Assembly: GCF_001937665.1 (NCBI RefSeq)
Contig: NZ_MSKL01000002.1
Coordinates: 1-64,000, forward strand
DNA length: 64,000 nucleotides
Reading direction: 5' to 3'
DNA from: Actinomyces oris
GTDB lineage: Bacteria > Actinomycetota > Actinomycetes > Actinomycetales > Actinomycetaceae
The first letter of the stretch is position 1. Each line of letters begins with the position of its first letter. Positions 2,423 to 52,871 of the stretch are shown here, one piece after another. The notes beneath the pieces were generated by a model, which worked only from the letters and a program-made list of their open reading frames with translations, ran no database searches and was not told the DNA's origin. The position numbers were made by a program, and so were the translations under genes.

Positions 2423-4022
2423 GCTTCTTGGGCGACTCGGGGCGGGCGTCGTTCTTGGCTCGCAGCGCGGCCAGCGAGTCGACGATGACGTTGCGGGTGT
2501 CCTCGGGGGCGATGACGGCGTCGATCTCACCGATGGCCACGGCCTTGTCGGGGTTGATGACGGCGTCGGTGTACTCGGCAACGAGCCGCTCGTGCTCGGC
2601 GGCGGCGGCCTCCTCACCCTGCTCGTCACGGACCTTGGCCAGGTCGCGACGGTGGATGATGCCGACGGCGCCGGCAGCACCCAGGACGGCGATCTCGGCT
2701 CCCGGCCAGCAGAAGTTGAGGTCGGCGCCGATGGCCTTGGAGCCCATGACGATGTAGGCGCCGCCGTAGGCCTTGCGCAGGACGATCGTCACCAGCGGCA
2801 CGGTGGCGGTGGCGTAGGCGTTGATGACCTTGGCGCCGCGACGGATGATGCCGGCGTGCTCCTGCTCGGCTCCAGGACGGTAGCCGGGGACGTCGACGAA
2901 GGTGACCACCGGCAGGCCGAAGGCGTCGCAGAAGCGCACGAAGCGGGCGAGCTTCTCGGAGGCGTCGACGTCCAGGGTGCCGGCGTCCACCAGCGGCTGG
3001 TTGGCGACGATCCCCACCGGGTGGCCCTCGAAGCAGGCGAAGCCGACCACGACATTGGGGGCGAACTCCTCCTGGACCTGGACGAGCTCGCCGTGGTCGA
3101 CGACGGCCGAGACCACTTCGACGACGTCGTAGGCCTGCCGGGTGGAGGCCGGGACGATCTCGCCGACGCTACGGGCGGCCTCGGCGTCGGCCTGGGCGTC
3201 GGTGTCGTCGTAGGCGTACATGGGAGCATCGAGCTCGGCCGAGGAGGGCAGGTAGGCCAGGAAGGTGCGGACCTGCCCAAGGGCGTCCTCCTCATCGTCG
3301 GCCACGTAGTGGACGACGCCGGAGACGGAACCGTGGATCTGTGCGCCGCCTAGGTCCTCGGCGCTGATCTGCTCGCCGGTTGTGGCGCGTACGACGTCGG
3401 GGCCGGTGACGAACATGTGGGAGGCCTGGCGGGTGGCGATGACGAAGTCGGTCAGGGCCGGGCTGTAGACGGCGCCGCCGGCGCAGGGTCCCAGGATGAC
3501 GCTGATCTGCGGGACCAGTCCGGAGGCGGCGCAGGTGCGGTTGAAGATGCGCCCGTACTGGCGCAGGGCCCCCACGCCCTCCTGGATCTTGGCGCCGCCG
3601 GAGTCGATGAGTCCGATGACGGGGATGCGCAGGCGCAGGGCGTCGTCCAGGAGGCGGACGATCTTGTCCCCCTCGATGGTGCCCAGGGCGCCGCCGGAGA
3701 CGGAGAAGTCCTGGGAGTAGACGGCCACCTGGCGGCCGTCGATCTGGCCGAAGCCGGTGACGACGCCCGAGGGGCGGGCCTTGTCGCCGGCGCCCGAACC
3801 GGAGTAGCGGCCGATCTCCAGGAAGGTGGAGTCGTCGAGCAGGTCGTTGATGCGCTCGCGGGCGGTGCGCTTGCCCTTGGCATGCTGGCGGGCGGCGGCG
3901 CGCTCCTCGGCCTCCCGGTCGATGCGGGCGATGCGCTGGCGGAAGGCGGTGGTGGCGACCGAGTCGGCCATGGTGGTTCCCTGGGCAGGTGCTCCGGGGC
4001 CGGTTATGGGATCGGTGGTCAC
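2403..4022 (-). CDS. accD: Acyl-CoA (acetyl/propionyl-CoA) carboxylase carboxyltransferase beta subunit
   Basis: Carboxyltransferase subunit that moves CO2 from carboxybiotin to acetyl- or propionyl-CoA. The 539 residues are typical of the PccB/AccD family. Visible signatures are the N-terminal helix rich in Arg/Glu (GKRTARERINDLLD), oxyanion-hole Gly-rich stretches (SGGAKIQEGVGAL, GPCAGGAVYSPAL) and the C-terminal KAYGGAYIVMGSK motif. It starts with GTG at 4022, preceded by a GAGGAGG ribosome binding site that overlaps the end of accC. It lies 3 bp after the biotin carboxylase gene and overlaps fas, so the three genes look co-translated. Substrate preference cannot be read from sequence alone; linkage to fas favours acetyl-CoA. 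Confidence 0.93.
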   Translation of the reverse strand: MTTDPITGPGAPAQGTTMADSVATTAFRQRIARIDREAEERAAARQHAKGKRTARERINDLLDDSTFLEIGRYSGSGAGDKARPSGVVTGFGQIDGRQVAVYSQDFSVSGGALGTIEGDKIVRLLDDALRLRIPVIGLIDSGGAKIQEGVGALRQYGRIFNRTCAASGLVPQISVILGPCAGGAVYSPALTDFVIATRQASHMFVTGPDVVRATTGEQISAEDLGGAQIHGSVSGVVHYVADDEEDALGQVRTFLAYLPSSAELDAPMYAYDDTDAQADAEAARSVGEIVPASTRQAYDVVEVVSAVVDHGELVQVQEEFAPNVVVGFACFEGHPVGIVANQPLVDAGTLDVDASEKLARFVRFCDAFGLPVVTFVDVPGYRPGAEQEHAGIIRRGAKVINAYATATVPLVTIVLRKAYGGAYIVMGSKAIGADLNFCWPGAEIAVLGAAGAVGIIHRRDLAKVRDEQGEEAAAAEHERLVAEYTDAVINPDKAVAIGEIDAVIAPEDTRNVIVDSLAALRAKNDARPESPKKHDNIPL

Positions 4023-49598: not shown

Positions 49599-50321
49599 TC
49601 AGCCGCGAGGGATCTGGTGAGGGACGTCGGAGAAGACACCGGTCACGCCCCAGTTGAAGAGCTCGTTGGCTCGGCTCGGCGAGTTGACGGTCCAGACGTT
49701 GACGCCGTAGCCCTCGGCCCGAAACTCCTGAACCTGCTGCCGGGTCAGTCCGGAGTCCTCGGGGTGGATGTAGTCGGCACCCACGATCTCGAGCGTGCTC
49801 CTCCAGTCACCCGACAGCGCACGACTCTCATAGAGGCACCCCACGGGCACCTCCGGGGCGCGCTGCTTGAACAGGTGGAGCAGGAGGTGGCTGAAGGAGG
49901 AGACGATGACCTTGACGTCCGGACGCAGGCGCTCGAACTGTGTGATGACGCCGTCGATGAGGCGCAGAGTCGCCTCCTTGCCGGTCTCATTGGGCTTGAT
50001 CTCGATATTGGCGTTGAGACCGGTGTCATTCATGAGGTCGATGAGCTCCCTCAGGGTGGGCAGCGGCTCACCCACAAACCGAGGGGAGAACCAGCCTCCG
50101 GCGTCGATCCCCTCCAGGTCGTCCACCGTCAGGTCGTCGTACCGACCGGTGCGATTCGTGGTCCGATCCAGGGTCGAGTCATGGCAGATGATGACTGTTC
50201 CGTCCGCAATGATGTCGACGTCGGCCTCCACCCACGCCACCTGATGATCCATCGCACAACGGAAAGCGGCCATGGTGTTCTCCGGGGCCAGCGAGCTCAG
50301 GCCCCGGTGCCCGAAGATCAT
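49599..50321 (-). CDS. Glycerophosphodiester phosphodiesterase (GDPD, UgpQ-like)
   Basis: Hydrolyses glycerophosphodiesters to glycerol 3-phosphate and an alcohol. 240 residues from the ATG at 50321, with GGAG 8 bp upstream; it opens directly with FGHRGLSSLAPENTMAAF, the first catalytic His motif. Further signatures are VEADVDIIADGTVIICHD (Glu/Asp/His) and NANIEIKPN. No signal peptide, so cytoplasmic. A longer frame up to 50537 runs through the divergent promoter and is rejected. Confidence 0.9.
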   Translation of the reverse strand: MIFGHRGLSSLAPENTMAAFRCAMDHQVAWVEADVDIIADGTVIICHDSTLDRTTNRTGRYDDLTVDDLEGIDAGGWFSPRFVGEPLPTLRELIDLMNDTGLNANIEIKPNETGKEATLRLIDGVITQFERLRPDVKVIVSSFSHLLLHLFKQRAPEVPVGCLYESRALSGDWRSTLEIVGADYIHPEDSGLTRQQVQEFRAEGYGVNVWTVNSPSRANELFNWGVTGVFSDVPHQIPRG

Positions 50322-50421
50322 GCGCTCGTCTCCGCGTACGCACCCACCACTGTCTGAGGTCACCGATGACATGGCCGGAATGCTACATGAGCCGCACGAA
50401 CGCACTCCGCGGAAGAACGCT

Positions 50422-50449
50422 TTGACATCAAGGCGAGTTGATATAAAAT
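50422..50449 (+). promoter_or_regulatory. Leaderless promoter of the arsR-type operon
   Basis: A consensus -35 TTGACA (50422-50427), 16-bp spacer, and -10 TAAAAT (50444-50449). The predicted start of transcription falls at or within a base of the A of ATG at 50457, so the mRNA would have no leader and no Shine-Dalgarno; none is visible. Confidence 0.75.
50427..50442. promoter_or_regulatory. Operator candidate ATCAA-N6-TTGAT
   Basis: Perfect 5+5 dyad with a 6-bp centre lying entirely between the -35 and -10 hexamers of the operon promoter. A bound dimer would exclude RNA polymerase, so autorepression by the ArsR-type product is the simplest reading. Confidence 0.65.
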
Positions 50450-50456
50450 CCCTTGT

Positions 50457-50786
50457 ATGCGAAAGGTCGCCACACCACCGGAGGCCCCCCTTGGGGAGGA
50501 CTCGGCCGTGGTGCAGCTGTTCAAGGCGCTGGCTCACCCCATGAGGGCGAGCATCGTCTACCGCCTCATCAGCTCACCGGCTGACGTCACCGAGCTGGTG
50601 ACGTTCCTCGGCGTCTCCCAGCCCCTGGTCTCGCACCACCTGCGGGTCCTGCGCAACGCCCACCTGGTCGAGTCGGTCCGCGACGGCAAGCGCCAGAGCT
50701 ACTCCCTCATTGACGACCATGTCGCATCCATCTTCATCGACACCCTCGAGCACACGAAGGAGCACGATCATGACTGCCACCACTGA
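50457..50786 (+). CDS. ArsR/SmtB-family metal-sensing repressor with alpha-5 site
   Basis: 109-residue winged-helix regulator. HTH: AHPMRASIVYRLISS, VTELVTFLGVSQPLVSHHLR and a basic wing (VRDGKRQSYSLID). The C-terminal helix carries Asp86-x-His88 and His99-x2-Glu102 (or His103), the spacing of the interfacial alpha-5 zinc site of SmtB/CzrA, followed by a metal-rich tail HDHDCHH. The alpha-3N cysteine site of CadC/ArsR (CxC) is absent. Zinc, cobalt or nickel are likely effectors. The stop overlaps the next gene by 17 bp, so the two are co-translated. Confidence 0.9.
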   Translation: MRKVATPPEAPLGEDSAVVQLFKALAHPMRASIVYRLISSPADVTELVTFLGVSQPLVSHHLRVLRNAHLVESVRDGKRQSYSLIDDHVASIFIDTLEHTKEHDHDCHH

Positions 50787-51093
50787 GCACCGCCCCGCTG
50801 AGGCCCACCAGCACACCCACGGCCCCGACTGCGGGCACCTGGCCGTCATCCACGGAGACCACGTGGACTACATTCACAACGGCCACGCCCACCACGAGGA
50901 CAACGGCCACTACGACGAGTGCGACACCTGCTCGTGCGAGCACTGCTCGGACCCCTGCGCCGTGTGCGAGTGCGAGGACTGCACCTGCCCCACCTGCAAC
51001 CACAACACCTGCTCGTGCGAGCACTGCTCGGACTCCTGCTCCTCGTGCACCTGCGAGGACTGCACCTGCCCGACCTGCACGCACGCCGCCTGA
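50770..51093 (+). CDS. His/Cys-rich metallothionein-like protein with tandem Cys repeat
   Basis: 107 residues with 20 Cys and 16 His. Residues 1-51 are a His-rich part (THGPDCGHLAVIHGDHVDYI, then HNGHAHHEDNGHYDEC) of a kind found in small proteins next to ArsR-type sensors. Residues 53-79 and 80-106 are two copies of a 27-residue unit, each with nine Cys (TCSCEHCSD then CEDCTCPTC), 21 of 27 positions identical. The ATG at 50770 has AAGGAG 7 bp upstream. No signal peptide or TM helix, so a cytoplasmic metal store or buffer is likely. Function is inferred from composition and linkage to the metal sensor. Confidence 0.85.
   Translation: MTATTEHRPAEAHQHTHGPDCGHLAVIHGDHVDYIHNGHAHHEDNGHYDECDTCSCEHCSDPCAVCECEDCTCPTCNHNTCSCEHCSDSCSSCTCEDCTCPTCTHAA
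50926..51087 (+). repeat. Tandem 81-bp in-frame repeat in the metallothionein-like gene
   Basis: Two adjoining 81-bp units (50926-51006 and 51007-51087) encode the 27-residue Cys repeat. Their first 27 bases are identical, and most later differences are single bases in a few codons, pointing to a fairly recent internal duplication. Confidence 0.85.
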
Positions 51094-51146
51094 GCGACTC
51101 AGTCAGTCACCCCTGGACGGGCTCCGCCTTCAGGAGGTGCGCCCCT

Positions 51147-51192
51147 GTGAGGGCCTTTTGCCGAATGACGTATGTCGGCAGGAGGCCCTCAC
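51147..51192 (+). terminator. Nested hairpin downstream of the metal operon
   Basis: Outer stem GTGAGGGCC (51147-51155)/GGCCCTCAC (51184-51192), a symmetric 3x3 internal loop (TTT/GGA), inner stem TGCCGA (51159-51164)/TCGGCA (51175-51180), and a 10-nt loop. It starts 54 bp after the stop. Probably the operon terminator. Confidence 0.65.
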
Positions 51193-51287
51193 GGTTTGCG
51201 GCAACGCTGTAGCCGACGGCGCCCGACGCAGACGGTCAGCGGGAGGCCCCTGGACGATGAGGCTCAGGGAATGGCGAGTTTGCACCG

Positions 51288-52871
51288 ATGCGCACGCGCA
51301 ACGATCATGTGCCCATGAGCAGTCCCCTGCCTGTTTCCGGTGCTTCTGGGCACGTCGCACCGCCTGTGCCCGGTGTCCGTCTGGGACAGGTGCTGGGTCA
51401 GGGAGGATTCGCCACCGTCTACGCCGGGGAGCAGGTCTCGTTGGGGCGCCCAGTGGCTGTCAAGATCGACTCCAGGCCGCTGCACGACGAGCGCAACCGC
51501 CGACGTTTCATGCGGGAGATGGCGGCCGCCAGCCGGATCAGCGGGCACCCGAACGCGGTCTCGCTGATCGACTCCGGAGTGCTTCCCGACGGACGTCCCT
51601 ACCTGGTCATGGAACGCTGTGACGGAGGCTCCTTGGCCCAGGTCCTCGAGCGCTGCGAGCTCAGTGCCGCCCAGGCCGTCAGCATCGTCACGGCCGTCTC
51701 CGCCGCGCTGGGAGCCGCTCACGAAGCCGGGGTCCTCCACCGCGATATCAAGCCCGGAAACATCCTCATTGACGCCTACGGAAGCCCGCGTCTGAGCGAC
51801 TTCGGCCTTGCCGCCATCCAGCGCGAGGGCATCGAGTCCTCCGTCACCCTGGAGACGATGACACCGGACTTCGCTCCGCCGGAGGCCTTCACCCTGGCTG
51901 AGCCCTCACCCAGCGGCGACGTGTGGTCGATGGGGGCCGTTCTGTTCACGCTCCTGACCGGCCGAGGTCCTCGTCGCACCGCAGACGGCACGGCCCGAAG
52001 CCTACCGGAGATCATCAACCACCTGTCCGTACCCGTGGACACCTCGGACACACGTATCCCCGAGGCGTTACGTCCGCTGCTCGACCGGGCGCTGCACCCC
52101 GACCCCGCTCAGCGGTACCGCGACGGCAACGAGCTGACCGAAGCACTGACTCGGGCCGGCGGGCTCTCGAACGGCGCGTTCAGCACCCCTCACTCGGCGC
52201 TACGGGATTCCCACCCCCTGCCTGCGGCGATCTCGACGCCCACAGCCGGATCGCGCCGCTCGAGCAGGGCACTGATGCTCCTGGCACTGGGGGTGACAGC
52301 GGGCGTCGTCATCTCCGCCGCTGTGCTGGGCGCCGTCAGGCTCATCGACTCGGTGCCGTCAGCGAACCGGGCAGCCCAGCGGGCCTCTGCCTCACCCGTC
52401 CTACATGCGGGGGCCCGAGCGGAGCAGGGCGCCGGCAGCCGCCCCTCGGCTACGGCCCGGGCAACCGTCCCCGGCTCCCGGAAGGCCTCGCCCTCCCCGA
52501 CAGCCGCCCCGACTCCCGCGCAGGTCAACGCCCAGGGCATCCCCTACTCCGACGACATGCCGTGGCCTCTGGGGACCTGCCTGAGCCGGACGACCTCGGT
52601 CGTGGGCGGCACGAGTGTCAGCCAGGTCGACTGCTCCCAGGCCGACTGGATCGTCTTCGCCGGCGGAACCTTCGACCCGGCCACGACCGCTTCCAGCGCC
52701 TCCGAGGCGCTAACGGATGACCCGCAGGTCAAGGTCACCTGCACCAGCACCTACGCGGAGCGCTACGGACTCGACCTGTCCACCAGCTACTCGATCAATA
52801 CGCTCGGTCCCAGTGATCAGGAGTGGGAAGCGGGCAATCGCGGTTTCGCCTGCGTTCTGGGCCGGCTGTAG
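51288..52871 (+). CDS. Membrane Ser/Thr protein kinase (Hanks type) with unknown extracellular domain
   Basis: 527 residues. The kinase domain (about 30-290) has GQGGFATVY (Gly loop), VAVKI with Lys59, the catalytic LHRDIKPGNIL, SDFGLA and an APPEAF variant of APE, so it should be active. A Pro/Ser linker, one TM helix (ALMLLALGVTAGVVISAAVL, near 330), an Ala/Ser/Pro stretch and an external domain of about 110 residues with conserved-looking cysteines follow. No PASTA repeats, so it is not PknB. The ATG at 51288 or at 51315 may be the start; neither has a clear ribosome binding site. Confidence 0.88.
   Translation: MRTRNDHVPMSSPLPVSGASGHVAPPVPGVRLGQVLGQGGFATVYAGEQVSLGRPVAVKIDSRPLHDERNRRRFMREMAAASRISGHPNAVSLIDSGVLPDGRPYLVMERCDGGSLAQVLERCELSAAQAVSIVTAVSAALGAAHEAGVLHRDIKPGNILIDAYGSPRLSDFGLAAIQREGIESSVTLETMTPDFAPPEAFTLAEPSPSGDVWSMGAVLFTLLTGRGPRRTADGTARSLPEIINHLSVPVDTSDTRIPEALRPLLDRALHPDPAQRYRDGNELTEALTRAGGLSNGAFSTPHSALRDSHPLPAAISTPTAGSRRSSRALMLLALGVTAGVVISAAVLGAVRLIDSVPSANRAAQRASASPVLHAGARAEQGAGSRPSATARATVPGSRKASPSPTAAPTPAQVNAQGIPYSDDMPWPLGTCLSRTTSVVGGTSVSQVDCSQADWIVFAGGTFDPATTASSASEALTDDPQVKVTCTSTYAERYGLDLSTSYSINTLGPSDQEWEAGNRGFACVLGRL

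Follow-up and report, generated by a model that had tools for sequence, protein, structure and literature searches.

Described metallothionein systems

A small Cys- and His-containing zinc-binding protein under the control of an SmtB-type repressor is the arrangement known for the cyanobacterial metallothioneins SmtA/BmtA. By analogy, it may also be the arrangement of a two-gene locus of Actinomyces oris, located in a 64,000-nucleotide stretch of contig NZ_MSKL01000002.1 (the window), whose second gene (mt) specifies a metallothionein-like protein of 107 residues. SmtA is one compact domain of about 56 amino acids, whereas the Actinomyces protein joins a His-rich module to two repeats of nine Cys each. 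The Cys spacing of Pseudomonas PflQ2 differs from that of the Actinomyces repeats, and PflQ2 is not known to have a repeat or a His module; mycobacterial MymT is short and its Cys pattern is also different from theirs.

An alpha-5 repressor of the SmtB/ArsR family, AzuR, controls the Anabaena metallothionein NmtA, and in this respect A. oris would resemble Anabaena. The azuR gene is remote from nmtA (PMC8790569) and smtB is divergently transcribed (PMC7387436); in contrast to both, the arsR and mt genes of the window overlap on one strand. In marine Synechococcus WH8102, Zur takes the place of SmtB and bmtA carries two Zur boxes (PMC9337993); those Actinomyces in which the ArsR is missing would be alike in this. 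PflQ2 holds its metal in one cluster of nine Cys and a His, Zn3Cys9His, the same count as one Actinomyces repeat, and its operon is apparently without a metal-dependent element (PMC7387436). MymT is likewise an actinobacterial metallothionein, but it serves copper detoxification (PMC7387436). Another actinobacterial candidate, the possible metallothionein of chromate-resistant Frankia strains, has three or four CXXC motifs and several His; it is linked to chromate, not to zinc, and its likeness to the Actinomyces family is one of description (PMC4531530). According to the 2020 paper, biological function had been investigated for only two bacterial metallothioneins (PMC7387436).

A His-rich module joined to two nine-cysteine repeats

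The features of the locus are collected in Table 1. Translation and a script count give the 20 Cys and 16 His that the sequence-only reading had reported for the 107 residues, together with 19 acidic residues (D+E), a single basic one (K+R), two Tyr and no Trp or Phe. The pattern CxCxxC-x3-CxxCxC-x2-CxCxxC is indeed found twice, in the two 27-residue repeats noted before, and at the DNA level these are an 81-bp tandem repeat (1.9 copies, 89% matches, score 256). The His module has the consensus HTHGPxCGHxAxxHxDHVDYxHxGHxH...GHYDEC, in which the Cys of HGPxCG and the Cys of DEC do not vary in an alignment of 26 rows. Over the whole protein, that alignment has an unvarying Cys at 19 of 20 positions. 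The protein thus has sequence properties of the metallothionein class: it is small and Cys-rich, with CxC and CxxC motifs, few aromatic residues and strongly constrained Cys positions. An AlphaFold2 model computed on the same alignment has low confidence (mean pLDDT 48.6) and therefore does not give the geometry of the metal clusters.

Table 1. Features of the arsR-mt locus (window coordinates)
Feature	Position	Strand	Basis
Promoter-like site TTGACA-16-TAAAAT	50422..50449	+	1 found in 50300-51300, shuffle mean 0.1
Candidate operator GACATCAA-N6-TTGATAT	50424..50444	+	overlaps both promoter hexamers
ArsR/SmtB-family repressor, 109 aa, alpha-5 D-D-H-x10-H-x2-E	50457..50786	+	NF033788, PDB relatives, motif
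Ribosome-binding site of mt, AAGGAG	50757..50762	+	inside arsR 3' end
Metallothionein-like protein, 107 aa	50770..51093	+	translation, 20 Cys + 16 His, homologue conservation
His-rich module, aa 1-51	50770..50922	+	26-row alignment, His-only relatives
First Cys repeat (C54 onward, 27 residues, nine Cys + conserved His, C-x-H)	50929..51009	+	
Second Cys repeat (C81 onward, 27 residues, nine Cys + conserved His)	51010..51090	+	

None of 26 members matches a Pfam family up to an E value of 10, a search in which weak matches of Cys-rich sequences may have been lost to the HMMER filters. No NCBIfam family matches the 107-residue protein and neither does any PDB entry; the best PDB match of a profile of the Cys repeats (E 0.15) is not a metallothionein. 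Neither a Pfam model nor a solved structure of a metallothionein being matched, there is no detectable sequence relation to SmtA/BmtA. The protein is unlike the models of known bacterial metallothioneins, and the earlier statement that it differs from the compact SmtA and MymT forms is to that extent supported. No description of the family was found in the literature searched. It may have been predicted by Schmidt et al. (2010, J Basic Microbiol), who are cited in PMC4531530 for predicting metallothioneins and metallohistins of actinobacteria in silico. The family is apparently undescribed, and it is absent from the domain libraries searched; to that extent the proposal of a new type stands. 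The fusion itself, of one His module and a duplicated Cys repeat, had been proposed with it and is supported, but it is not peculiar to the genome of the window.

Full-length homologues are present in 34 of 49 Actinomyces genomes, a 35th having a weak partial match only, and in 42 of the 213 genomes of a family sample. The order sample has a full-length match in 9 of 248 genomes and the class-level sample in 13 of 394, with a one-repeat form (L081) in one more. In a phylum sample of 396 genomes, a profile of the Cys repeats alone matches two, one of them being that of the window, and the family is therefore uncommon outside Actinomyces. Its named carriers are A. oris (with a 100% identical protein), A. 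israelii, A. bovis, Cutibacterium avidum, Alloscardovia omnicolens, Streptoalloteichus, Aeromicrobium and Streptomyces griseocarneus. The sequence-only reading had asked whether searches with the separate halves would find the fusion elsewhere: it is carried by the 34 genomes of the genus and by other actinobacterial families, and it is not unique. A scan of viral contigs for the family gave eight stretches, none of them confirmed; eight records of a plasmid collection matched, none covering 80% of the query.

Constraint on the protein was counted over 58 distinct genes (89 before identical genes were merged, a larger set than the 54 loci referred to below). From residue 15 onward, Cys departs from the residue of the window in 1 of 1140 cases, His in 76 of 798 and other residues in 1024 of 3363 (30%). 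The dN/dS ratio for 28 equal-length Actinomyces genes is 0.33 (NG86, ratio of sums). That the open reading frame might be spurious was considered and rejected on the evidence of the homologues in 34 of 49 genomes, the near-invariance of Cys and this ratio.

The modules apart

The wider set of relatives has the architectures His, His-His, His-Cys (L081), His-Cys-Cys and Cys-Cys; the last is found in L117, which is without a His module and 60 amino acids long, counted from its ATG. Separable His and nine-Cys modules are combined in one family, which is present in Actinomyces and in Cutibacterium. Among 54 distinct fusion loci (77 before identical genes of two collections were merged), the metallothionein-like gene has an ArsR neighbour in 39, and so does the Cys-only L117. 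Near the His-only loci, in contrast, phmmer with the ArsR of the window (E 1e-3) finds none in the flanks of 22, by a search that an ArsR might escape if it were strongly diverged or lay farther away. The ArsR partner tracks the Cys repeats, not the His module, which overturns the earlier notion that it is the His module that is known next to ArsR sensors.

Small His-rich proteins annotated as 'zinc transporter permease' resemble residues 14-50 of the 107-residue protein; they have one or two His modules and are without the Cys repeats. On plasmids, L067 and L138 are proteins of this annotation with a single His module and about 50 residues, and at that size they can hardly be permeases. Two diverged His modules, without Cys repeats, are found in L065 (92-316, an Enterococcus faecalis plasmid record) and in L064 (Lactobacillus sp. 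Sy-1); these Firmicute relatives had been candidates for His-Cys fusions and were rejected as such. The His module is also present on two unannotated human fecal phage records, MT836058.1 (11451-11588, 58.7% identity) and MT837699.1 (5405-5512, 69.4%); in the phage collection, both matching records carry the His module only.

The proposed arsR-mt operon

The product of the upstream gene matches the ArsR domain PF01022 (2.3e-12) and, above its cut-off, the metalloregulator subfamily model NF033788 (1.3e-24); a PDB search matches it with the SmtB, NmtR and CzrA structures. The motif D-x-H-x10-H-x2-E/H is the alpha-5 zinc site of ArsR/SmtB sensors, of which the SmtB type derepresses in excess zinc. 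Its D-x-H-x10-H-x2-E form is present in all 44 ArsR partners checked and aligns with SmtB, in which we take D104, H106, H117 and E120 to be the alpha-5 zinc ligands that correspond to the motif of the ArsR in the window.

The 3' end of arsR and the metallothionein-like gene share 17 nt, and the AAGGAG is seven bases ahead of the ATG of the latter. Since the genes overlap in this way, and since the span 50300-51300 has a single promoter-like site, the two would be co-transcribed. The co-translation with a zinc-type sensor that the sequence-only reading had described is thus supported, for a putative operon, by the overlap, the alpha-5 motif and the match with SmtB. Seven bases separate the -10 hexamer from the ATG of arsR, and the arsR mRNA may for that reason be leaderless. 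In close relatives the arms of the candidate operator are kept and its six-base spacer changes; in L049 both arms are altered symmetrically, to ATATTAA...TTAATAT. The palindrome pattern was not recognised in the more distant loci and in some Actinomyces, and the operator is therefore supported for the nearer relatives only. In the nearer ArsR loci the promoters approach the consensus, and promoters of that kind would need a repressor.

Actinomyces loci without ArsR

Of the 34 Actinomyces genomes with a full-length match, all except G027 and G043 entered a regulator survey of 32 loci, in nine of which no ArsR lies beside the metallothionein-like gene. An orthologue of the ArsR of the window was found in none of these nine genomes, the best match being 31.6 bits compared with 232.4 for self. 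In ten genomes (these nine and that of the window) ArsR matches at E 1e-6 are confined to two, the window's own and G047, which has two unlike matches of 31-32 bits. Relocation of the ArsR gene to elsewhere in these genomes was rejected on these grounds. The nine loci are syntenic with that of the window: in all of them Sua5, which in the window lies beyond a GDPD gene, is upstream of the metallothionein-like gene. All nine also have a Zur-like box, the best in each locus having 0-4 mismatches to TGAAAATNATTTTCA, which we take to be the Zur-box consensus and against which boxes were scored. Each of the ten genomes has one Fur-family gene. In the four checked (three ArsR-less genomes and that of the window, the last confirmed by Pfam) it adjoins a znuB-like gene, and it is therefore taken to be Zur.

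In six of the nine loci, the -35 of the top-scoring promoter follows the end of a box (2-5 mismatches) at a distance of exactly 3 nt. The same spacing holds in L044 for the second-ranked promoter and is absent in L023 and L027 by the promoter scan. These promoters (TTGSCR-18-TAYNNT) are weak and have an 18-bp spacer, which would be typical of activator dependence. Given the usual distance to the start site, the box nearest to the promoter spans roughly -54 to -40, and further boxes in the six loci are 24-67 bp upstream of it. Streptomyces coelicolor Zur protects -78 to -40 at zitB, a gene that it activates (PMC11077047), and Zur activates bmtA of Synechococcus (PMC9337993). A Streptomyces box upstream of the -35 is, according to a review, not expected to repress (PMC6103462). 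The place of the box just upstream of the -35 in six of nine loci is thus as expected for activation by Zur of the zitB kind.

The boxes might be read the other way, the product being a zinc allocation or starvation protein that would bind zinc when it is scarce and pass it on, and that in the Zur-box species is repressed by zinc-loaded Zur and made in starvation. Besides the boxes upstream of the gene in nine Actinomyces loci, this reading can draw on L028, in which the box with the 3-nt spacing has 5 mismatches and the box that matches best, with 2 mismatches, is within the promoter; this position is more like that of a repressor and disfavours a pure activator there. It can also draw on L077, where arsR-mt comes after what appears by eye to be a ZnuB C-terminus. 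L054 is arranged unlike the other loci: it is without ArsR and its metallothionein-like gene (at 3001) directly follows an ABC-3 permease of ZnuB type (1986-2978), hinting at a zinc-starvation role there. At znuA, three Actinomyces genomes have boxes (3-4 mismatches) that, in contrast to those of the six mt loci, are at or just before the start codon and downstream of a TTGACG-like -35 (identified by eye). The ArsR-type members, moreover, have an SmtB-type alpha-5 sensor, which derepresses in excess zinc, and the Zur-like boxes at the ArsR promoters of L047 and L061 make more sense with the two regulators working in one direction. We consider a starvation protein unlikely; the gene would rather be made in excess zinc under either regulator.

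Chance, or another regulator, could also account for the boxes of the ArsR-less species, leaving only the ArsR operon real. The consensus was assumed and not derived, and the best boxes have up to four mismatches. Dinucleotide shuffles reach the observed box score in 5 of 60 cases for L023 and 4 of 60 for L044; in the other seven loci none of 60 does so, and the box of L029 is an exact match. Scanning the ten genomes at up to 2 mismatches gives 17 rows at 15 distinct places in seven genomes (0-5 rows per genome). They include five mt promoters, those of G002, G009, G012, G026 and G047; the other four of the nine mt promoters are missed at this threshold, and some of the places elsewhere look coding. 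Against this, a reversed control pattern gives one hit in the same scan, the 3-nt spacing is constant in six of nine loci, and all ten genomes have a single Fur-family gene. Chance boxes thus seem to us improbable, and Zur remains the preferred second regulator. Outside the nine, five other ArsR-less loci (L052, L054, L055, L056 and L100) have no Zur box beyond chance, and L057 is truncated, its contig starting too late for any upstream DNA.

Away from mt, L109 (about position 1501; G009:C2:8066) has a Zur-like box between genes that by eye are like those for a ribosomal protein L28 paralogue and CobW, both classical Zur targets. In the genome of the window, boxes L107 (G000:C25:125900) and L111 (G000:C27:41240) are near genes, again judged by eye, for ABC transporters of the ECF and the oligopeptide/nickel type, which are candidate zinc uptake systems.

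Proposed function

The product of the gene is probably a zinc metallothionein, and its family a distinct actinobacterial one; it would be made from an autoregulated arsR-mt operon in A. oris and under the drive of Zur in the ArsR-less Actinomyces. What we infer from the sequences is the metal binding with its stoichiometry, the repression with its relief, and the binding and activation by Zur. The metallothionein-like gene would be the second of the operon, and the SmtB-type repressor would occupy GACATCAA-N6-TTGATAT across the promoter. A rise of cytosolic Zn(II) would fill the alpha-5 site, the repressor would leave the DNA, and the metallothionein then made would sequester the excess zinc and plausibly also Cd. 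In ArsR-less Actinomyces, zinc-loaded Zur just upstream of a weak promoter would drive the same gene, also in excess zinc. A role in the detoxification of another soft metal, with Cu(I) or Cd(II) as the main ion bound, like that of MymT for copper, might be suggested by the repeats, rich in CxC and CxxC, and by the tight binding of these ions that thiolate clusters generally show, but the zinc-sensor D/H/H/E motif in 44 of 44 ArsR partners and an alternative regulator that looks like Zur make it improbable.

Possible replacement of the regulator and what it would mean

In a Sua5 tree of 21 rows (loci with a complete Sua5), three changes between the regulatory states are required, or no fewer than two when weakly supported branches are disregarded, and A. 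massiliensis, of the ArsR type, is nested in a supported clade of otherwise Zur-type species. It seems from this tree that the regulator was swapped in place two or three times within Actinomyces, with the direction either way. Several ArsR loci also have a Zur-like box: that of L047 has one mismatch and that of L061 three, scores reached by none of 100 shuffles, and weaker boxes are found in L048 (5 of 100) and in L080 (3 of 100), a locus outside the 54 distinct fusion loci; that of L099 is within chance (30 of 100). ArsR loci with a Zur-like box could be intermediates that have both inputs. It is our tentative view, held a little short of even confidence and tempered by the position of the best box of L028, that an undescribed actinobacterial metallothionein family has had its control replaced in place at least twice in one genus, between a co-operonic SmtB-type repressor at a near-consensus promoter and zinc-dependent activation by Zur at a weak one, with Actinomycetaceae TAE3-ERU4 and Cutibacterium keeping both.

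If this is true, Actinomyces would be a second, independent lineage that repeats the cyanobacterial alternative of SmtB/SmtA and Zur/BmtA, and a second lineage would let the evolution of the SmtB/Zur switch be tested by comparison of promoters. The genus offers for this purpose close species that differ in the wiring of one metallothionein-like gene, some using an SmtB-type repressor and others, seemingly, Zur.
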